Assembly: GCA_920105625.2 (NCBI GenBank)
Contig: OV050033.1
Location: 128,773,821 to 128,837,820, forward strand
DNA: 64,000 nucleotides
Origin: Clusia tigrina
Lineage: Eukaryota > Arthropoda > Insecta > Diptera > Clusiidae
Direction of reading: 5' to 3'
Shown here: one piece after another, positions 2,840 through 62,731 of the stretch
Numbering within the stretch: the first letter of the stretch is position 1
Layout of the letters: each line of letters opens with the position of its first letter
Program-made: the position numbers and the translations under genes
Notes under the pieces: generated by a model
The model's input: the letters and a program-made list of their open reading frames with translations, nothing else
Databases searched by the model: none
Told to the model about the DNA's origin: nothing

Positions 2840-3560
2840 AAAGCAAATTTTGATCAAATTCACTAATTTTATACTAAAGCATGTCAAAATATATTTTTAT
2901 AAATAAATAATATTTTAAAGAATCGTTTTCATTAATTTGTTTGATTCTTCATTTATAAAATGTTTTAATAAAATTTGTTTTCAGTTCTAATTTTTATATT
3001 TATTTTCTGTTTTTTTTATATTTTATTTTACTTATTAAGTATTTTTCCAAATTTATGTGTACATTTTTTTAAATTTATTTTTATTATATTATTGTATATT
3101 TATTTTATTTCAAACAAAATAATAGTTTTCTAACTTTTAAAATGGAAAATTTTTTACTACGTGATAAGATTTTTATATACTTTTATTTATTATCTGTTTA
3201 ATATTTCATTTATAAAATTTTATAAAAATGTTTTTTCATACATTGTTTTATAAATTTATTTTAATATTCTTTTTTTGAATCTCTGTTTAGTTCTTAATAT
3301 AAAAAATGCTGTTAATCAAATTATTAATCATCTCTAATTTCTATATTTATTTATTCGGTTTTTTTTAATATTAATTTTATTTTTTTATATTTTTTTAAAT
3401 TCTTTTAGTATGTAATTAAATTTATTATACTTTTTTAAAATTTTTTAAAATTTTTTTGTGCATAAATTGATAACTTTAAAATAAACTAACTTTTTGCTGC
3501 ACTATGTCCAAAAATATTATTAAATACTCGTATATAAACAAAAAACATCATAAAATCAAA
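2840..3560. other. AT-rich low-complexity spacer
   Basis: Mostly T and A with T in excess on the plus strand. No coding potential was seen. Confidence 0.8.
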
Positions 3561-4157
3561 TTCCCCTCCACTCATCATATTCGTTGATAGCACACTCGTG
3601 CCTATTACACTCTATCTTTGGAGTTATGTATTTTTAAGTAGCCATGTAAGAGGCTAAAATTGCTAATGCGGATGTCTGGCCTAATATGAAACCAGCCATA
3701 TTTGCCGTGCAGTTGGGGTACATTGACATTGACTCCAGTCTCGGTTATAGTAGATGGAACGATGGAACCGTTATGCGGAAAGCAAATCCAAGTCAACTTA
3801 ATAAGTGGCACAGCGACTGCCATCAGAACGCTAAACAAGCTAAGGTGGTGCATTATGGAATTCAAAAGTAGATAAGAAGCATTATAAGATCTTATAAATC
3901 CTTTATAGAGAATATTTAATTGTAATTGCGGTATTTTCTAAGGACTTGCGCAGGACTCTTATTGTTGGAGTATTATAGAAGACTTCAAAGTTTCAACAAA
4001 GTTGTCGTAGAACTGGTAGAAAACCATGTAAAACAATTATAATATTTTTTATTTTAGTACATAATAAATTTTTTAGTTAAAATTACTCTACATTTATATT
4101 GAGAGTATAAGTAAAACTAAGCTTAACATTATATTTGTATTTCTAACTTACATGAAT
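3561..4157. other. Intergenic, nothing recognised
   Basis: Short overlapping frames exist on both strands at 3605-3871 (61 and 86 codons). Neither resembles a known family. No repeat was seen. Confidence 0.45.
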
Positions 4158-4385
4158 CTGAAGATTCGTGTTATCTAATGAGTAATCCAGGGAGAAATAT
4201 CAATGTAGTACATAAAGAGGGTGGTTCTTTCTAATGGGTAATGACCATGGTGGACATAAAAATTCATAATCTTACATCTTTCTTTATGTCCACCATGGTC
4301 ATTACCCATTAGATAGAACCACCCTCTTTATGTACTACATTGATATTTCTCCCTGGATTACTCATTAGATAACACGAATCTTCAG
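4158..4385. repeat. Long hairpin: 103-nt inverted repeat, 22-nt loop
   Basis: Arms 4158-4260 and 4283-4385 are reverse complements with a single mismatch (ctttcta against ctatcta). The loop is 4261-4282. A transcript would fold into a near-perfect 103-bp duplex. The arms contain the TTACTCATTAGATAAC motif of the tandem array just downstream, so the hairpin probably arose by inversion or template switching within that repeat. Confidence 0.9.
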
Positions 4386-4407
4386 AACCCCCCTTTTATG
4401 CTCACTT

Positions 4408-21049: not shown

Positions 21050-22454
21050 ATGGTTGAGAAAGTGATTTTGGCTTATTCGGGCGGCTTAGATACGAGCTGC
21101 ATTTTGAAATGGCTGCTGGAGCAGGGCTACGTGGTCATTTGCCTGATGGCCGACGTGGGTCAGAGTGAGGATTTCGAGATAGCTCGCAGGAAAGCACTCA
21201 AAATAGGAGCCCATGAGGTACACACAAGAAACTGTATTTTTAAATACTATGAAAGCATCCCATCTCTGTTCTCTGGTTCAGGTGACCGTGGTGGATCTTA
21301 AGGAGGACTTTGTTGGCAACTTTGTATGGCCCGCAATACAGATGGGCCTCATCTACGAGGAGCGTTATTTGCTGGGCACCTCCTTGGCCCGGCCCTGCAT
21401 AACGGTGGCATTGGTGGCAGCTGCCAAAAAGCATGCGGCCAAGTTCATAGCGCACGGCGCCACCGGCAAAGGGAACGATCAGGTGCGCTTCGAATTGTGT
21501 GCCTATGCTCTGCACCCGGAAATCAAAGTGAGTGAATGGTCTAGGTAGTGCGGTCACCTCTTCAGAGTAATGCTGTGCCTTTTTCAGATCATTGCTCCTT
21601 GGCGTGATGAGGAGTTCTGTGCCCGCTTTCAAGGTCGTCTGGATCTGATCGAGTACGCCCATAAAAATTCCATACCCGTGAGTGCAGTGCCGGCCGCTCC
21701 GTGGAGTACCGACGCCAACATTCTGCACATCAGCTATGAATCGGGTGTGCTGGAAGACCCGTTTCATCCGGCGCCCTCGTCCCTTTACGAAATGACCGTG
21801 GACCCAGCGACGAGAGCACCCAAAGAACCCGTACGCCTTTCTATTCAGTTTGAACGTGGCTTGCCCGTATCTTTGGGTTTGGGGCGTGTGGACTGTCAGC
21901 GTGCCTTCTCCACGCCCCTTGAGATTCTGCAGTACTTGAACGAGGTGGGCGGTAGGTACGGCATTGGCCGCATCGACATCGTCGAGAACCGTTATGTGGG
22001 TCTGAAGTCTCGAGGGGTCTACGAGACGCCGGGCGGCACCATACTCCATGCAGCCCATCAGGATCTCGAGATTTTCTGCCTGGATCGGGAGGTGCTGCGC
22101 ACCAAGCAGTTATTGCGGGATCGCATGTCGGACTACGTCTACAATGGTTTCTGGTTCAGTCCCGAGGCTGAATACGTGCGCCGCTGCTTGGAGATATCGC
22201 AGGAGCGCGTGTGCGGCCAGGTTATTATAGAGTTGTTGCCGGGCCACTGTCGTGTGGTGGCTCGCAAGGCCACCAAAGAAGCCGGGGCCCTTTATAATGA
22301 AGAACTGGTGTCCATGGACGTGCACGGCGGTTATGTGGCCAGCGATGCCAGTGGATTCATTGCTATTAATGCGGTTCGTATACGGGAGCATGTCCGCGCA
22401 TTTGGGGACTACAAATCGGAAAAACTTGGTCAAGAAAAAAATAGCATGCAATAA
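21050..22454 (+). CDS. Ass: Argininosuccinate synthase, complete three-exon gene
   Basis: Catalyses ATP-dependent joining of citrulline and aspartate to argininosuccinate in the cytosol, in arginine and NO-citrulline metabolism (family knowledge). Exons: 21050-21217, 21282-21527 and 21588-22454, with GT/AG introns of 64 and 60 bp, both in phase 0. The protein is 426 residues, close to the usual 400-412. The N-terminal ATP PP-loop is AYSGGLDTS (residues 8-16). The second exon holds [13 protein letters not shown] and [13 protein letters not shown]. The third holds [17 protein letters not shown] and the tail [14 protein letters not shown]. The ATG at 21050 opens directly into the conserved VILAYSGG strand, so the start is secure. 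Coding DNA is clearly GC-richer than its surroundings. No frame damage. AATAAA signals follow the stop. Confidence 0.96.
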
Positions 22455-24981: not shown

Positions 24982-27900
24982 GTGAGTGTTTGCACATTTA
25001 ACTTAACTAAATCCCAATTGGAGCGACAACATTTTTTCATTGCCCTTGCGAAGAGGTGCTGGGTGCTCCGTGCGTTCACGCCCCCCTTTGTTAGCAGCCA
25101 TTTATTGCAATGGGAACGAGGGAAAATCATTTTAATTGTTCAAAACACTTAAAATTATTATTAAATTATGCATTAAATATGTAAATGTATGCACAAGAAT
25201 GCATTTTTAATTAAGTGATGGAAAATTTTCGCAAGTATCGATTTTTTCCCTTTAAGTTTGTGTGACCTTTTTTCTCTCTACTGGATTCATTTTGACATTG
25301 TTTCTCGTTCCTCTCTTCATGTCAATTTACGTACTGTTATCGGAAAAGTGCGTCGCAAAAAGCTGCGCAAAGGGAAAGTGTTCACATGTTAAAATGACGT
25401 TTACAGGGTTTGTGCATTTGTTTTTGTTTTCCCATATGACGTCATTTGTTAGCGGCGTATTATTTTCTGCAACATTTTTTGCCTACGGTTTGTTGTTTTT
25501 GTTGATTCACAGGTAGTCGACGCAATGACTCATACTCCCACTTCATACTATGTATTTCAAATTCGCAATGCAAAAATAAACTTTGAAAGTGGGGGCTGAG
25601 TGGGGATAGCAAAATAAAATCTAAAAATAAAAAAATTTAAGCACTATGCTTCTTCTATGTTTTCTGTGTCCAATTATTTATAATTGGTACCAAAGGGACT
25701 TGAAACTTATTGAGGACCGTTGATAACTTAAAAATGAAGATAATATGGCAAAGGAAATTAATGCAAAATACAGTAAACTCTTGATTATATTGACTAATTC
25801 AGATAACTGTGGTATATAATACAAAAATTGTAACTAAGCAAAGTTTTAATTTTTGAAACAACACAGGAAAGGAAATACAGTCAGCGTCAAAATAAAGTAT
25901 ACAGATGCAAAGAGCTCATTTAAAAGATAATATCCTTGTTCATAATGAAAATATCCTAAATGCATTTCCATTTTTGGAAGAAGTTACTTTATTACTTATT
26001 TTTTAATACTAATATGAATAAAAAATATTTACATAATTTCACTTAAATTCAAAAAAGAGGTAAAAACTCACAAATTCACGCGTTTCACAGTTTCAAATAA
26101 ATTGACAAATTCGATTCATTTATTTGCAACTGTATACTTTATTTTGACTCTGACTGACTGTATGTATATTGCAAATTATCAGGCTTAAAGCTAATTAAAT
26201 ACATCCCGGCGTAAAGTTCATTTAAAAGTTTTGGGTAAATTTGAAATCCTGTATCTCCCTGCTAATAGTAGTACAATGGGAATCAATAATTGAGTGCTTG
26301 GAGACCTCCTTTTTCAGCGACTCTCCAGCCTATATTCTATCTGCTTGTATCTAACCACATATGCCATCTCTATAAGTGTGGATATTCACAGCATTGGAAT
26401 TATATGCAGCCTTACTAGTGAAGTTAGATAGGCTTGTGATTGAAATATAAAGAAATGATATGGAGTAAAGAAAGTCGAATCCACTCTATTGTTATTACTA
26501 TAGGTAGAACCAAAATAGACTAGACTTAACGATAGCGATTGGACGAACGTCTGCACTCGTTACTTCGATTTTGATATTTAACCCAAAATGTGACGGTATC
26601 AGCCGCATCGATAGATGGCTTTTTACATAAATTCCAAGCTCATCCCACCCAGCGGCGATTAAATTGTAGCAAAATTCCGTCATTTTAATTTTAATTTCTT
26701 TAAAAAACAACAATCGTGTCAACAAAGAAGAGGTTGTGACGAGTAGCAGACGTTTGCAGTTCGATTCTTAAGGGCTAACCAAAATAGACGAGACGTAACG
26801 AGTAAAGAGCCGACCAAAATAGACGAGACGTAACGAGTAAGTTCAAGCATATGTGAATCAATGTTAATAGCCAAAATGGCCATACGTATTTGATCGAAAC
26901 TGAACGAAACATTTAGACAAGACGATCGGTTCCCTAAGAACCGAACTGCAAACGTCTGCTACTCGTCACAACCTCTTACCCTACGTCTCCACGGGCAATT
27001 TTTGATGGCATAACATCTGTCAAATTTGATTGCAATGGTTGGCAATATTTTAATGGTGGGCATTGCGATGTTATGCCATTGTCATTTTGAAAATGCCGTC
27101 AAGCAATCTAGTTCGCTGTGTCCACGATTGAAAAAAATTTTTATTTATACGATGAAGAGGAAAAAAGAAGGAAACCGAAATTCTGGGTGAATCCTTTATT
27201 ACAAAGAATGCAAATGCACAGTCTCCATTCATTTTAGCGTTTTTATTTATTTAATAGATGCGGTAAAACGAAAATGTCCGACGTTGCTTCCACTGTGAGC
27301 GTCACGAAAAAATGAAAAAAGGCTGTCAAACAAACAAAATGACAACTGATTGCAACACAGCACGTTGGCAATTTATGGCATAACATATTTCATAACATAA
27401 ATTGCCAACTTGAAGCAATTTGGAGTCTCCATTGGCAATTTGCTTGAAATTGCCAATGGCATGCCATCAAAAATTGCCCGTGGAGACGTAGGGTTGTTTG
27501 GTGACACGATTGTTGTTTTTAAAAAAAATTAAAATTAAAATGACGGAATTTTACTACAATTTAATCGCCGCTGTGGGGGATGAGCCCGGAATTTATGTAA
27601 AAAGCCATCCATCGATGCGGTTGATAGCGTCACATTTTGGGTTAAATGTCAAAATCGAAGTAACGAGGGCAGACGATCGTCCAATCGCTATCGTTAAGTC
27701 TAGTCTATTTTGGTCCTACCTTTACGAAACCGATCGTCATGTCTAAATGTTTCGTTCAGTTTCGATCAAATACGTATGGCCATTTTGGCAATTAACATTG
27801 ATTCACATATGCTTGAACTTATTCGTTTCGTTTCGTCTCGTCTATTTATGGTCGGCCCTTCTGGCCTTCGACTCGAAGAGAAAAACATTTTGAAAGAAGC

Positions 27901-45900: not shown

Positions 45901-48900
45901 TTCTTTTGAACTTAAATTAATATTCACGTTACTGTTTTGGTAGACTTTCCATTAAATTTTTATTCCGCTCAACCAACCAATTTAAAATCTGTTTTATATG
46001 TTTATTTTATCATTGTGTTAGTCGGTCCCTTTCAGTATAGTTTCGCTTTGTTAAACAACTTTCGAACCCATTTTCGTCACGCACAATGATAGGCTAAAAT
46101 ATTCGCAGAAAACCCGTCACTGCCTCAACCGCTAAAACTGACCCATAGCCACTCGCAACGCCACCTCCATAGCGGACCGAAATATATTCTCAAACCTATT
46201 TTGATTTTATTTATAAAGAGATTTCTTACTGCGCACATGGCAGAGGCACGCGTCCTTTATTGTTGCTGCTGCTGAATTTGACAGAACTACCCTTAAAGAC
46301 GTCGATCAATATGCTGTGTGTAACAATAGCCAAGTGCCTTCCCCACTTCATACACACGAGTATTTGGGCTTTTTCGCTGCTTACTGCTATTATATTCTTC
46401 TGAGCTTAAACGTCATTTTTCGGTCTTCTTTGGCACATTGCCTCATTTGCCTCGGTTGTGTTTATTTTTACTTGGCAATGTGGTTTGTATAATGACGCCA
46501 CAGCTAATATCTGAAGCAGACGTTCTTAGTTGCTTTGTGATTGTTGCCCCCAAAGGACAACTCAATGACTTTGTGGCTCGTATCATTTCCCATTAATCGT
46601 TAATGGGAAAGTTTTAGGCACGAATGTTTTTACTCTGAATAATCTTCGTCGGATAAAAATATCCACGAGCTCCTCACTCTCTTTAACTATCGCTTTAAAT
46701 GTGTGGCAGTTGGAAGGGAAAAGCAATCGTTGCTATGTGCACGACTGTGTCATTAAACTAATTGGTGGTTAGTATAGTGAACGGTCGGGAGTAAACGTGT
46801 TTGCATGTAAACTGCATATCTCTGCAATTCCTCGTAGAACGGAACAATTCAATTTAAGGAAAAATGCCAACTTCCAGCTCTAGCGTGGTTGTTAGACCCC
46901 AGTGAAGGTTTGTTTCTTTAAGATTAAGCAGGATTTTAGACCTCAGTGGGGATTTTCTCCTTCCAGCTTATGATTTAGGAGAGTTTGTAGACGTCAATGT
47001 AGGCTTTTCCTCCCACCTTTAGGGGGGTTTATAGAACTCAGTGGGTGTCCGTTCCCATCGGCTTTAACAGGAGGTCTTAGACTCCAGTGGAGGTTTTTTT
47101 CTTCCAACTTTATAGGGGATTTTAAGTGTTCAATGGAGATTCTCCTTCAGCTTTAGTGGAATTTTCAATCCTTCCAGCTTTAGCGGAGCTTTTAACCTCA
47201 GTGGAGGCTTCTTTCCTTCTAGCTTTAGCTGTGTTTTTAGACCTCAGTGGATGTTCGTTCCTATCAGCTTGAGCGGGGGGTTTCGAGACCACAAAAAAAA
47301 TATTGGGTCTGATTTCATTTTTACTATACACTAAAATGTATCAAAGATCCGAAGAATATTATGTACCGAAAATTCTCTGTAATGGATTTTCGGTACATAA
47401 TATTCTTCGGATCTTTGATACATTTCTCGGTGTGGTTCTTCCTTTTTTTTCAAAGAAAAAGTTCTCGATGTTGATCTCTTTTTTTTAATATCAAGAAAAA
47501 AAACTCTCGGTACAGTAACTCTTCCTTAACAAAGTCTTGGGATTCACCTTCAATAAAACTACAAGCGTCCAAATGTCTGTTTTTTATGGGTTTCCAATGG
47601 TGTTCCCGACGGTTCCCAATCTTCTTCATCATCATCTTTAACTTATCTAGAAATACAGTCACCACACTACTAAATGGTCCAACGGTCTGTTTTCTATGGG
47701 TTGCCAATGGTGTTCCCCACTGTTCCCAATCCTCTTCATCATCATCTTCAATTTACCTCATATTTATATAGAATTCTTCAAGCTGTGCAGCATTGCAGTC
47801 ACTATGCTTTAGAATAATTTAACATCCTAACTAGTAGATATACACTTAAGACCTATTATTACAGTCCATCCTGTCCGTAACCCAACTAACTAAAATTAAG
47901 TACTCGTATATTTGTATGCGCAAAACTGAACAAGTGAAGTGTCTAACCAAGAAACAAAAATCCATCCCTCCATATTCCCGCCGACGCTCGTTTAGGTCTT
48001 CTCGCTCGATTCGCCGGATACCTTTCAGTGTCTGTACTCGCCGGCGTTCGCTTCGATCCGCACCAAACACATCGAGCGCATTGCCGAGCAGATTGCCACC
48101 TTGTGTGCCACGCTCGGTGAGTATCCGATGGTGCGTTATCGTAACGACTGGGATCGCAACATCGATCTGGCCGCCTCGGTGCAGCAGAAACTGGATGCGT
48201 ACAAGGCCGATGAGCCGACAATGGGGGAGGGCCCGGAGAAGGCTCGTTCCCAGTTGTTGATATTAGATCGCGGATTCGATTGTGTGTCGCCGTTGCTGCA
48301 CGAATTGACATTGCAGGCGATGGCCTACGATCTGTTGCCGATCATCAACGATGTGTACAAGTATACGCCGGGGCCGAATCAGCCGGAGAAGGAGGTGCTG
48401 CTCGACGAGAACGACGATTTGTGGGTGGAGTTGCGTCATGAGCATATCGCCGTCGTATCGACTCAGGTCACGCAGAATCTGAAGAAGTTCACTGAGTCGA
48501 AGAGAATGACATCGAGTAAGTTTTTCCGCCAGGGTGGGTGTGTCCCTCTATGTGTGTGTGGGGTTACTTTAAAACTTGAAAAAATTTAAAAGATGAGCAA
48601 TTTTCTGTCATTAGGGAAGTTCTTTTCTTTTGCAACATTTTTGCCACTTTATAATATTTGAAAAAAAAATTGTTCTTAGCCGATAAATCATCGATGCGTG
48701 ATCTATCTCAAATGATCAAGAAAATGCCGCAGTACCAGAAAGAGCTGTCCAAGTATTCCACTCATTTGCATCTCGCCGAGGACTGCATGAAGTCGTATCA
48801 GGTGAGCGAGTCGTAAGCCACAGGAATTTTGTTGCATATTTCTAAGACTTCTTCTTTGCCCACTGCAGAACTACGTAGACAAGCTATGCCGCGTTGAGCA

Positions 48901-57871: not shown

Positions 57872-58209
57872 ATGTTAATTGCCAATTCGTTGTTCTTTTA
57901 TCTTCTCTGCTGTCCATTCTTCGTCTGGTAAAACAGTCATTAAGCGCACATCGACTACTCCTTTCCCTTCAGCTTTAGAGTAGTGCTCACATTCCACATT
58001 GCAAGGACGTCGTGATAATGCATCAGCATTCCCGTGGCTTCCACCTCTGCGATATTCTATTGCGAAATCGTAGCTTTGGAGTCGCTCAATCCATGTCACA
58101 ACCTGACCTTCGGGATTTTTGAATTGTAATTGCCAGCGCAGAGCAGCGTGATCCGTTCTCCACAATAACTTTTGTCCATACAAGTACTCGTTAAAGTGCT
58201 TCACGCACT

Positions 58210-58888
58210 TGTGAAGACCTAAATTTTATAACAATTTTAGGTCACACAAAATACCGCCCTCACCATATACCAACACCATGCGAGCACATGTAGCCAAACC
58301 ACGCCACACGTGGTTATGCTCGAACATGACACAACGCCGAAATACGGGAATTCCGTATGCGCGAACACGACACAGTGCCGAAATACGGGACTTGTCGATG
58401 CTCGCATAAAAAAATGTATAAAAGGCCGGTGCGCGGAGGAACCGGTCTCTTGTGATTTCAACAGCGGCGGCGACAACAGCGGACGAGCAGGCGAGTAAGT
58501 GGGTATAGTATTCGCGGACATTGGCGACCACGGCAGACAGTTCCTGACTTTTGAGACTTCTTACGTGATTGGTGGTGTGAGGTTTTAACCGACATCACTA
58601 CCACGTAAGAGAGTGCTCCCCCTAGACGAAGTAAACGCGAGGTTTTAACCGGCGTTGAATTTCAAAGCAGCTATTGCTTCTACGTCTGCCACTACCCCAC
58701 TTCACTGCAATTAGACGAAGCGGAGATAATACAGAATTTAGTTATAATTAGTCTAAGATGAAGTTGTAATTTACTGAATAATAAAATAAAGTAAAACTCC
58801 ATCAAACGTGTTGTGTTAAGGTCAAGAAAATAAATATTGTACAGGACTCTGGGAAGACTGAGCGTACCCCAGCTAGAGATTCTTTACA
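58210..58888 (+). repeat. 5' LTR
   Basis: Begins TGTGAAGACCTAAATTTT and ends TTCTTTACA. TATAAAAGG at 58417-58425 is the likely promoter, and AATAAA at 58780-58785 a likely poly-A signal. The first 40 bp hold an inverted repeat GACCTAAATTTT...AATTTTAGGTC. Confidence 0.93.
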
Positions 58889-58906
58889 TGGCGCCCGAGC
58901 AGGGAC
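58889..58906 (+). promoter_or_regulatory. Primer-binding site, tRNA-Lys type
   Basis: TGGCGCCCGAGCAGGGAC directly follows the LTR. It differs at one base from the complement of the tRNA-Lys(UUU) 3' end. Confidence 0.85.
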
Positions 58907-58925
58907 CTTAACACAACGAATTGAT

Positions 58926-59483
58926 ATGAAGCCGAAGTCAGGGTGGATCTATACCCTACGCAGAGACCAGCTAGAACAATACGCGGTAGAATTTAAATTT
59001 GACGATACTGGAAGTGTGGACGAACTGCGAAAAAGGTTCGCAGCTTTCATAGTTGATATCACCACTAACCCAGAATTCCGCAAACGACTGGAGGAATTGG
59101 AAATAAAGCACACGCAAGGGACAACAAGCACCACATTACCAAAAACGTCGAAGTCAACGTTAACACAACCATCTCACGTCCACGTAGAGGAAATGGAACG
59201 ACACCAGGAACATCCATCTGGCGGTGCAGATAACATGAACGCCTTTTTGTCAACTCAATGTGTTACCGTCATTGAACAAGTTCGTAAGTGGCCAGTAAAA
59301 TACGACGGCGATAAGGATCCGTTGGGATTTATAGAGCGCGTAAAGGAACTGGCAGACATGTATAGTCTCAACCGGGACTTACTCCCTCGCACAATGCCAC
59401 AGCTTCTCACAGATAAGGCATTAACCTGGCACCGAAACAACAAAAGGCAGTGGGTCACGTTTGAAACAATTGACAGTGCGTAA
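58926..59483 (+). CDS. Truncated gag of the LTR element
   Basis: 185 codons from the first ATG after the primer site. The N-terminus (WIYTLRRDQLEQYAVEFKF, then VDELRKRFAAFI) looks SAP-like, as in several insect Ty3/gypsy gags. The C-terminal half (WPVKYDGDKDPLGFIERVKE, then LPRTMPQLLTDKALTWHRNN) is a capsid-type segment. It stops at 59481-59483, well short of a normal gag, without a nucleocapsid zinc knuckle. The stop lies where the frame of the next ORF begins, so the truncation and the acquired sequence may share one event. Confidence 0.8.
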   Translation: MKPKSGWIYTLRRDQLEQYAVEFKFDDTGSVDELRKRFAAFIVDITTNPEFRKRLEELEIKHTQGTTSTTLPKTSKSTLTQPSHVHVEEMERHQEHPSGGADNMNAFLSTQCVTVIEQVRKWPVKYDGDKDPLGFIERVKELADMYSLNRDLLPRTMPQLLTDKALTWHRNNKRQWVTFETIDSA

Positions 59484-60909
59484 CAGGAATCCTAGGAAGC
59501 AACAGCAGAGGTCACCACAGAAACAACAAGGACAGCAAACGCTAATACAACAACAGTTGACAATAGCAAACGACGATCAACAGATAACCCCGCCTGCAGT
59601 GAGACGAGGGCATTCGATATGGAGCACAAACAACAGCAATCTCAGCAACAACAACAATAACATTAAAAAAATTGCCGCTAGCCTCTCAGCTAAAGCCGGC
59701 GCTGCCGAAGAAGCCAAAGCAGCCGCAACTACATCACCGGCTTCATCCACACCTATAACACCCCGAAACCACGGACGGAAGAAGAACCAACAAGTAACGC
59801 AAGTCCTGCAACGAATTGCTGACACTCTTGAGGATCAGGAAACACATCCGATGCCCGCCAAAGTGGCTAATATTGAATTAGCAGAAGGTTCACGTACAAG
59901 TGCACTCACAGCGACATCGCCTCTACTAAACGCAAATTATGATGAAACTCCAACGCTGGACTTGCACGATCCCAATTCCAATTCCAACGCTCACGTTCGT
60001 CTACCAAGCACTGCGCCTTCATCGGCACCGCAGCGCGATTATAAGATCAAAGACAAGTTCAAACGGACCCTTACGCTGGACAACCAGGTCAACTGCAACG
60101 CGGTGGTCCCGTCACCGAGCGCACAAGTATCCGCTGAAGGCACTGGTACTGCTGGCATAGTCGCAGCCGAGGAGGAACAGCAACGCGGTTCGGTAAAACT
60201 GGTCTTATCCAAAAATAAGGGTAGGATTTTCAAAAGTGGGGTACTTGTTCAGTCCGACCAACCCGAGCGGTCTGCAGTCAACAAGCGACAGCATCTGTAC
60301 AAACATCGGTGGGGTGCTGAAGCCAACGGCGATGCTTCCTGCGACGCAATGCCTCCGAAATTCAATGACAAGCAAGCCATACGAATAGCGTCCGACGGCC
60401 TTTTTGAAGACTTCAATGAAGAGTCGAGCAAAAGTACACTTTCACGTAACAATAGACCAGTGGTCCCCAATCTATTTGATATGGACACGGACACAGCTAC
60501 ACCGGCCGACATTATTACCAGCTTTAAAGTTGACAGGAAGGGCAAACTGAATGTCGTAGCCGATGCGCAATCTAGACAACCGCTAGAAGCTCTTTACTCA
60601 CGTACTGAACTGCAAGATGAAGAGAAGGAAGAATATAACGACGGAGGCACGTGGAAGAGAGGCGCTACATCATTGACCGCGCTATTAAATAAACTGCCCA
60701 TTACAACTGGCCTCACTTTCTGCGACCTGAACGAGGTACATGGAGAGAAGGGGCAACACTTACCACAAACGGTCAAAGACGCAATAGCAGCGAGGGTGCA
60801 GATAGATCATAGGACTGGGAAACTGAAACGAATGCGATTCGAAATACCACCATACCGAATCGTCATTAACCCCACGTCAATAACCGTAAGATTGCGCACC
60901 ATGAAGTAA
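59461..60909 (+). CDS. 482-codon open frame of chimeric or captured origin
   Basis: Long open frame, +1 relative to gag and overlapping its end. It has no ATG at its 5' edge, so translation would need a frameshift, readthrough or an internal start. Order: Gln/Asn- and Ala-rich low complexity (residues 1-90), a basic TPITPRNHGRKKNQQ patch (about 97-112), KIKDKFKRTLTLDN (about 196), KLVLSKNKGRIFKSGVLV (about 247), RQHLYKHRWGAE (about 275) and SSKSTLSRNN (about 324). Then comes KGKLNVVADAQSRQP (about 361), which resembles the RNase H tail of gypsy pol (NVVADALSRQ). No RT or integrase motif. The text looks like fly nuclear protein rather than pol. I cannot name a donor. The stop codon lies in the polypurine tract. 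Confidence 0.6.
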   Translation: MKQLTVRNRNPRKQQQRSPQKQQGQQTLIQQQLTIANDDQQITPPAVRRGHSIWSTNNSNLSNNNNNIKKIAASLSAKAGAAEEAKAAATTSPASSTPITPRNHGRKKNQQVTQVLQRIADTLEDQETHPMPAKVANIELAEGSRTSALTATSPLLNANYDETPTLDLHDPNSNSNAHVRLPSTAPSSAPQRDYKIKDKFKRTLTLDNQVNCNAVVPSPSAQVSAEGTGTAGIVAAEEEQQRGSVKLVLSKNKGRIFKSGVLVQSDQPERSAVNKRQHLYKHRWGAEANGDASCDAMPPKFNDKQAIRIASDGLFEDFNEESSKSTLSRNNRPVVPNLFDMDTDTATPADIITSFKVDRKGKLNVVADAQSRQPLEALYSRTELQDEEKEEYNDGGTWKRGATSLTALLNKLPITTGLTFCDLNEVHGEKGQHLPQTVKDAIAARVQIDHRTGKLKRMRFEIPPYRIVINPTSITVRLRTMK

Positions 60910-60917
60910 GGGGGGGG
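60902..60917 (+). promoter_or_regulatory. Polypurine tract
   Basis: TGAAGTAAGGGGGGGG directly precedes the 3' LTR, as required for plus-strand priming. Confidence 0.85.
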
Positions 60918-61601
60918 TGTGAAGACCTAAATTTTGTAACAATTTTAGGTCACACAAAATACCGCCCTCACCATATACCAACACCATGCGAGCACATGTA
61001 GCCAAACCACGCCACACGTGGTTATGCTCGAACATGACACAACGCCGAAATACGGGAATTCCGTATGCGCGAACACGACACAGTGCCGAAATACGGGACT
61101 TGTCGATGCTCGCATAAAAAAATGTATAAAAGGCCGGTGCGCGGAGGAACCGGTCTCTTGTGATTTGAACAGCGGCGGCGACAACAGCGGACGAGCAGGC
61201 GAGTAAGTGGGTATAGTATTCGCGGACATTGGCGACCACGGCAGACAGTTCCTGACTTTTGAGACTTCTTACGTGATTGGTGGTGTGAGGTTTTAACCGA
61301 CATCACTACCACGTAAGAGAGTGCTCCACCCTAGACGAAGTAAACGCGAGGTTTTAACCGGCGTTTCACTTCAAAGCAGCTATTGCTTCTACGTCTGCCA
61401 CTACCCCACTTCACTGCAATTAGACGAAGCGGAGATAATACAGGATTTAGTTATAATTAGTCTAAGATGAAGTTGTAATTTACTGAATAATAAAATAAAG
61501 TAAAACAAACTCCATCAAACGTGTTGTGTTAAGGTCAAGAAAATAAATATTGTACAGGACTCTGGGAAGACTGAGCGTACCCCAGCTAGAGATTCTTTAC
61601 A
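60918..61601 (+). repeat. 3' LTR
   Basis: Copy of the 5' LTR with the same TGTGAAG...TTTACA ends. It carries a 1-bp and a 4-bp insertion relative to the 5' copy and a short block of changes (gcgtttcactt against gcgttgaattt). Confidence 0.93.
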
Positions 61602-62731
61602 CACTCCATAACCGCCCAAAGTTCTCTCCGTGTTACACAGTAATTTCGCTCTAGCTTTGATAAGATTTTGCTGAAGTAGGCTATTGCTCTTTCATGTCCG
61701 TCAATAACTTGCGACAGGACACCTCCAATCTCGAAGGCACTTGCATCTGTAACCAAAATAAATTGTTCGCCAGGAATTGGATACGCAAGGATTGGAACTG
61801 TACACAATAGCTCTTTCAATCTGTTGAATGCCTTCTCCTGTTCGCTTTTCCACTCAAAAGGACAATTCTTCCTCGTTAATGCATGCAGACACCAGCCACG
61901 TCTGCGAAGCTTGGAACAAAGCGTCTGTAATAGGTGCAAAGACCCAAGAAGCTGCGTAGCTCATGCAAACTAGTTGGTCTTGGCCACTCCCTTACTGAGT
62001 CAATCTTATCTGGATCTGTGTGTACTCCTTCAGGTGTGACTTTATGTCCAAGGTACTTGACTTCTCTCTTGAATAAGCTTCAACCCTGAAGCTCCTAATC
62101 GCATCAATACTTCTTCCAAATTCTTCAAGTGGTCCGCAAAGTCCTTTCCCGTAACGATGATGTCATCTAGGTACACCAGACACGTTTTGCAGTGGAGACT
62201 CTTTAGCACATGCTCCCTTAAGCGTTCAAATGTAGCATTTCACAGTCCGTATGGCATCACCAAAAATTGCCATAGTCCATCACCGCCACTGAATGCTGTC
62301 TTTTCCTTGTCTTGTTCGTCTACTGCACTTGCCAATATCCGCTTTGTAAATCCAACGTTGAGAACCAATTTGCACCAGAAAGTGTGTCCAAGGTATCATC
62401 GATGCGAGGTAATGGATAACTTATCCGGGGTGTAGATATTAATTGTTTGAACATACTCGTATGTACATATTTGCATACTTTTATATTAATGTGCATTTTC
62501 ATATTTAAAGACAAACAACACAAGTTGCCTTTTAATCTTACTCCAGCAAAGTATAATTGGCTAATGCGCCAAGTATACGCAATTTAGAACACGGCTCATG
62601 CGCCTGGTCTAAAACTAAACATTATAATATAAAAGCATACTATACATTCATCTTGTTGAGGAAGCTAAATATCGGCGCTTAATCCTGGGTAGAAAGCTAA
62701 ACTGGAAGGTTAAAATGGCTGCAAACTTAGC

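Follow-up and report, generated by a model that had tools for sequence, protein, structure and literature searches.

Results

An LTR insertion with a long open frame

We analysed a stretch of 64,000 nt from the fly Clusia tigrina (contig OV050033.1, G000:C3:128773821-128837820; the window, hereafter), set against a genome of 1.21 Gb in 666 contigs. At window positions 58210-61601 lies a long terminal repeat (LTR) retrotransposon whose long open reading frame (ORF), termed ORF2 across its family, contains in its central part a piece of the host gene wapl (wings apart-like), which encodes a cohesin-release factor. The parts of the copy are as follows (window coordinates; RT, reverse transcriptase).

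58206-58209, no strand: left target-site duplication CACT; joining the flanks restores a 229-codon frame
58210-58888, + strand: 5′ LTR, 679 nt, from LTR comparison
58889-58906, + strand: primer binding site TGGCGCCCGAGCAGGGAC, directly after the 5′ LTR; copy L018 has the same site behind its 5′ LTR (in L039)
58926-59483, + strand: truncated gag frame, 185 codons; the full gag of L018 has Retrotrans_gag and CCHC
59425-60909, + strand: long open frame, 494 codons from stop to stop, 481 from 59464
59463-59467, no strand: join from a deletion, about 1 kb less than L018, with the 3′ half of gag and the protease gone
59464-59573, + strand: pol remnant from between protease and RT; L018 949-1618 matches RT-bearing L045 1-670 at 97.9%
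59574-60546, + strand: stretch captured from host wapl; 90% identity over 1018 columns with host L044 (reverse complement) 3037-4053, with protein matches
60547-60626, + strand: pol scrap from behind RNase H; NVVADAQSRQP in the window copy, NVVADALSRQP in L045
60627-60909, + strand: C-terminal end of ORF3 (a SENP-like protease ORF) without its catalytic part; L018 from 2652 matches the ORF3 end of L047 and L048
60910-60917, + strand: G run ending the polypurine tract, eight G directly before the 3′ LTR
60918-61601, + strand: 3′ LTR, 684 nt, from LTR comparison
61602-61605, no strand: right target-site duplication CACT, seen in the letters

Two LTRs, a primer site, a purine tract and a target-site duplication are thus all present, and the CACT duplication, primer site, G run and near-identical LTRs confirm the recent LTR insertion that an initial annotation, made from the letters of the window, had proposed. 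The insertion lies within another Ty3/gypsy element (window 57875-62079, minus strand); when the inserted element and one CACT were removed in silico, an uninterrupted 229-codon RT/RNase H frame of the recipient was restored on the minus strand. The LTR pair is identical at 673 of 684 columns and differs by 6 substitutions, one 1-nt indel and one 4-nt indel; three of the six substitutions cluster within 4 nt, so that slight mosaicism of the LTRs is possible and a simple dating of this copy would be unsafe. The primer site TGGCGCCCGAGCAGGGAC presumably matches tRNA-Lys.

The 494-codon frame is longer than chance would give, since 1000 dinucleotide shuffles of the interior gave open frames of at most 298 codons. 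A Pfam search with it found no family at E up to 1, a PDB sequence search returned a single chance-level match (SEC3, E 0.32), a search of viral contigs for relatives of ORF2 and gag yielded none that was confirmed, and Rfam at gathering scores had no match in the window. Protease, RT, RNase H and integrase domains are all absent from the window copy itself. The annotation had called the frame 'non-pol', which suits its central part, wapl, but not its beginning and end, which are pieces of the element (pol remnants and the ORF3 C-terminus); the join between the pol scrap and ORF3 falls within about 60612-60626. The truncated gag of 185 codons stands as annotated. The gag-protease deletion is, however, private to the window copy among the loci compared, which indicates that the short gag is a separate later deletion, one that also removed the protease, and no part of the capture.

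The central part of the frame comes from host wapl

A protein search with the frame that allowed longer candidates (7989 scored) returned 20 proteins at E up to 10, from 1.3e-68 to 5.3e-21, and thereby answered the first check that the annotation had suggested. All 20 carry the WAPL Pfam family; 16 have source names, all of them fly species, and 14 of these 16 are called wings apart-like. With a Wapl C-terminal query, host wapl was located at one place in the genome, C3:186873184-186875140 on the minus strand (16 candidates, all scored; 6/6 matches at the same place). The donor stretch, about 3037-4053 of L044 (reverse complement), lies within one 867-codon open frame, and a comparison of host wapl with four element copies, across about 1018 columns, gave 90% DNA identity and a single in-frame deletion of 42 nt. 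The captured part stops directly before the WAPL domain PF07814 (which starts at residue 1049 of P0008 and residue 1178 of P0002), and the captured frame, without a Pfam match, lacks this C-terminal mark of a Wapl protein. In a protein tree in which ORF2 fills 34% of columns, host Wapl and ORF2 are sisters with support 100/100; the end branch is 0.16 for ORF2 vs. 0.0095 for host Wapl, and most protein change therefore falls on the element side.

Part of a host gene thus lies in the element, with its donor elsewhere in the same genome, and, as judged by DNA identity, the long frame is captured host coding sequence with wapl as the donor, which bears out the capture that the annotation had suspected. 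The genome search it had asked for, aimed at a multi-exon donor and at further copies, found both donor and copies, but the matched stretch lies within a single open host exon, so that there is no intron loss to compare.

An RT-bearing relative shows what was replaced

Among the 150 of 2748 candidates that were scored with a protease query, we found frames of 1076-1083 codons at five places and of 960-962 codons at seven. Two of the five longer frames, L045 and L054, were examined, and both are without wapl. L045 has protease, RT, RNase H and integrase in that Pfam order, the pol order of Ty3/gypsy (Metaviridae-like) elements, and its best PDB sequence match is Ty3 Gag-Pol (1.3e-120); L054 has a YLDD motif and no wapl match. 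The annotation had held that relatives with ordinary pol in the same place would tell against capture. Such relatives exist, but without the wapl piece; they therefore reveal the part that gave way to wapl and do not speak against the capture.

Of the seven shorter frames, one (L016) is an integrase-less copy whose gag frame runs into ORF2, and the other six (L046, L049-L053) all contain wapl. L046 has Pfam matches to protease and integrase and none to RT; it agrees with L045 at 98.5% over residues 1-198 and at 99.1% over the last 445 residues, and between these it has Wapl where L045 has RT-RNase H. By this alignment, some 320 codons of host wapl have taken the place of RT and RNase H in frame. 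Host wapl and the RT-bearing element have letters in common at both joins, ATCAAC at the 5′ join (6 bases) and ACAGGAAGG at the 3′ join (9 bases).

In the RT-bearing element, protease-RT-RNase H-integrase is followed by the SENP-like ORF3 and then the LTR, and ORF3 is found in the wapl-integrase type as well. ORF3 is open over 444 codons behind the integrase at L047:81-1412 and L048:77-1408 (G000:C2 and C3). That of L047 matches Peptidase_C48 (2e-24), and its closest solved structure by sequence is Sentrin-specific protease 7 (SENP7, 3eay; 5.6e-39), with aligned His, Asp and Cys that we take to be the catalytic triad. ORF3 is accordingly classed, by similarity, as a SENP6/7-like SUMO protease, and is possibly a second captured host gene. 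The 641-codon class of copies described below and the window copy are both without its catalytic part.

A dispersed wapl-bearing family

Searching the genome with ORF2, we scored the best 89 of 1265 first-look candidates, a sample biased to good copies. Sixty-five of the 89 have no stop in the matched frame and the remaining 24 have one or two; the scored copies match nearly the whole query at 90-95% identity (the window copy at 100%). The annotation's non-autonomous element that keeps an intact ORF is thus borne out, and the long frame is not special to this copy but common to the family. Thirty copies were examined as loci L009-L038. They have 18 distinct 3′ flanks other than the element's own primer site, and L018 has its own target-site duplication, GTAC, with an LTR pair that shows 3 mismatches and 1 gap over 1393-1394 nt. 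That a number of scattered insertions have the same joins, and duplications of their own, shows that the chimera was passed on by retrotransposition; the capture was made in an ancestor of many copies and not at the window site. Most wapl-bearing copies examined are without integrase and most of ORF3, through one common in-frame deletion.

The gag of L018 matches Retrotrans_gag (1.2e-07) and zf-CCHC (0.00019). Its ORF2, 641 codons from stop to stop in the -1 frame with a 91-nt overlap with gag, begins with an aspartic protease (gag-asp_proteas, 1.8e-11; DTGA in the translation) and continues into the wapl piece; a protein search with the protease region had none of 559 candidates at E 0.001. 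Slippery heptamers such as GGGAAAC signal -1 frameshifting, and GGGAAAC lies within the gag/ORF2 overlap of L018 in the gag phase (G GGA AAC), leading into the -1 frame. It is present in 27 of the 30 loci and absent from L016, L020 and the window copy, the last because of its deletion. Both frames are uninterrupted at 13 of the 30 loci, gag between the beginning of the locus and the overlap and the -1 frame as far as its end. Classification as a terminal-repeat retrotransposon in miniature (TRIM) or a large retrotransposon derivative (LARD), neither of which has coding capacity, was rejected, as family copies encode gag and protease::Wapl frames.

The L018 LTR (L039:673-1373) contains a 142-nt repeat (4.9 copies) and a 50-nt repeat (3.7 copies), and the window LTRs are short; LTR length differences among copies are due to the 142-nt tandem repeat. 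Wapl-bearing elements also form tandem arrays at G000:C4:68621714-68660851 (~4.2 kb spacing) and C1:365597078-365704699 (~3.2 kb spacing), which look, in their regularity, as if amplified by unequal exchange. At several loci the primer site lies directly after the 3′ LTR.

Recombination with the RT-bearing relative

In a host-rooted DNA tree of 36 wapl pieces, in which several forks are weakly supported, the window copy and the integrase-less copies lie near the root, and the six integrase-type copies branch from among integrase-less ones, with L051 separate from the remaining five. The letters past the wapl join could be read in 32 of the 36 copies (four lack the anchor motif). Five of the six integrase-type copies carry there the letters of the RT-bearing L045, and L051 is a mosaic: two marker positions have the letters of the wapl family, and RT-type letters follow about 20 nt later. 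Such a pattern would be expected if templates were switched repeatedly between wapl-bearing and RT-bearing RNAs, and it is the strongest indication that wapl-bearing copies are served by the RT-bearing relative.

We conclude that the family is very probably a defective, gene-transducing, non-autonomous Ty3/gypsy LTR element, of which the window copy is a doubly deleted member. As we envisage its origin, reverse transcriptase would have switched template onto a co-packaged wapl RNA, which would have put wapl in the place of RT-RNase H in a chimera that kept LTRs, primer site and gag. Wapl-bearing copies would then be copied and integrated in trans, borrowing the RT and integrase of the RT-bearing relative, and, where gag is intact, a -1 frameshift at GGGAAAC would yield a Gag-protease-Wapl fusion where RT would otherwise be made.

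Several points weigh against this scheme. The integrase-bearing copies are not basal in the tree, so that they may be later recombinants rather than the first chimera, and integrase in L049-L053 is deduced from frame length and the letters past the join, L046 alone having been examined that far. The donor stretch lies within one exon, which leaves an RNA intermediate probable rather than proven. Movement in trans is read from the mosaics and from the LTR, gag and protease sequence held in common, and expression of the Wapl fusion by -1 frameshifting is a prediction from sequence; the predicted fold behind GGGAAAC is no better than those of shuffles (z +1.12).

The same single-exon donor leaves room for another route, in which the wapl piece entered as DNA, by double-strand break repair or end joining in an integrated element, and not by reverse transcription, and the short identities at the joins would be compatible with end joining too. 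We nevertheless consider this unlikely, as the joins exchange exactly RT-RNase H with a frame that runs on into integrase, and the mosaics of wapl-bearing and RT-bearing types point to ongoing template switching in the family.

The Wapl piece is most likely a passenger

The element might also gain from what it carries: the Wapl piece could be an accessory protein under selection that is produced together with Gag and protease, is released by the latter and helps the element by disturbing host Wapl or cohesin. A comparison of copies was among the checks that the annotation had recommended. Between the host and 29 of the 30 loci (L037 left out), synonymous divergence (dS) was 0.071-0.112 (mean 0.094) and mean nonsynonymous divergence (dN) 0.051, a ratio of 0.54. 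Among 12 copies, thinned for near-identity from the 17 of 30 loci taken as indel-free, the ratio of nonsynonymous to synonymous polymorphism (pN/pS) was 0.61 for Wapl, between gag (0.47) and protease (0.85), as a selected protein might show; the linker gave 0.40 and the tail 0.52. Site classes were counted in the 25 of 36 copies that remained after near-duplicates were removed, with a neutral expectation of 2.59 nonsynonymous (N) to one synonymous (S) change. Inherited changes (51 N : 27 S) lean towards constraint relative to singletons (86 N : 24 S), but the contrast has a Fisher p of 0.067, and neither the changes fixed vs. the host (14 N : 9 S; S excess, p=0.16) nor the shared ones (37 N : 18 S; p=0.25) differ on their own from neutral, the value for singletons being p=0.94. 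Nonsense changes make up 4 of 114 singletons (3.1% expected).

The open frames can be read both ways. That 65 of the best 89 copies keep the frame would suit an accessory protein, but the 89 are a biased sample, and in simulated neutral decay to the same number of changes the frame stayed stop-free in 11-25% of runs. Similarly, the most conserved block of the piece, DYKIKDKFKRTLTLDNQVNCNAVV, is unaltered in the window copy, whereas that copy differs at 13 of 77 columns invariant in 20 fly Wapls (left-out Wapls differ at 0-3 each), some of the 13 altered columns being common to all 28 other copies checked and some private; the long element branch noted above (0.16 vs. 0.0095) speaks against an accessory role too. 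Strong purifying selection on the Wapl piece is not supported by the decay runs, pN/pS or the site-class counts. The piece is relaxed and its open frames are largely explained by youth; it is most likely a passenger on which constraint is possible but weak at best, and we regard a selected accessory role as rather improbable. A reading of the frame as one of the element's own genes (a fast-evolving gag, pol or env), which the initial lack of a Pfam match allowed, has next to no probability and is ruled out by the DNA, which over 1018 columns is 90% identical to the exon of host wapl.

One particular form of an accessory role is speculative, and we think it still more doubtful. A metazoan-conserved N-terminal motif of Wapl is predicted, in the account given in PMC10656103, to sit in the cleft of Wapl's own C-terminal domain. 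Gag-protease-Wapl made by frameshifting might carry a fragment of a cohesin regulator into virus-like particles, at the position otherwise taken by RT; once freed by the protease, this decoy could vie with host Wapl for Pds5 or for Wapl's own C-terminal cleft and alter cohesin release in germline nuclei in favour of access or integration. If true, this would be a retrotransposon that acts on chromosome cohesion through a host-derived decoy, beside the SENP-like SUMO protease of its RT-bearing relative.

Other features of the window

An inverted repeat at 26499-27838 has arms of 231 and 117 nt with 93-94% complementarity, 764-784 nt apart, and a near-perfect palindrome at 4157-4386 has 104-nt arms, 99% complementary, around a 22-nt loop. 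The window further contains a 301-codon open frame with an argininosuccinate synthase C-terminal domain (21549-22454, 3.3e-69) and a Sec1-family exon (47996-48589, 1.7e-43).

Discussion

Acute transforming retroviruses have a host gene in the place of pol or env, in many cases as a fusion with gag, and their defective genomes are carried along by a helper. Those viruses are exogenous, and the wapl element implies neither infection nor an oncogenic role. Among LTR elements, maize Bs1 carries transduced pieces of three plant genes and, like the wapl element, is without full pol and has its host-gene pieces fused in a hybrid frame (PMC13317346); as far as Bs1 is described there, the wapl element differs in having a single piece exactly in the RT-RNase H place behind the protease, and in occurring as many copies in a genome that also contains the donor gene and an RT-bearing relative. 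The crocodilian endogenous retroviruses CrocERV29 and CrocERV31 carry KIT-ligand and nectin3, respectively, and, as here, the captured host coding sequence is open in several proviruses and viral genes have been lost; they are, by that account, vertebrate whole-mRNA captures with reported purifying selection, whereas ours is a gene fragment in a fly Ty3/gypsy element with no firm sign of selection (PMC4299795). A mosquito retrotransposon with a captured jingchuvirus glycoprotein is likewise an insect element with a foreign gene, though one described as viral and not from the host (PMC10084718). Host-gene capture as such is therefore already known, from the accounts of Bs1 and the CrocERVs (PMC13317346; PMC4299795); our searches of open-licence papers found, among the matches listed, neither a wapl nor a SENP-like ORF in an LTR retrotransposon, and no precedent with wapl.

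Host-gene transduction is well known in retroviruses and seldom seen in animal LTR retrotransposons with the donor, both joins and the RT-bearing relative in one genome. Here donor, joins and relative can be aligned base by base, which opens template switching, mobilisation in trans and the recombination of defective with RT-bearing elements to testing. With a cohesin-release factor as the donor and a SENP-like SUMO protease in the relative, two chromosome-regulating proteins are represented in a single retrotransposon family.

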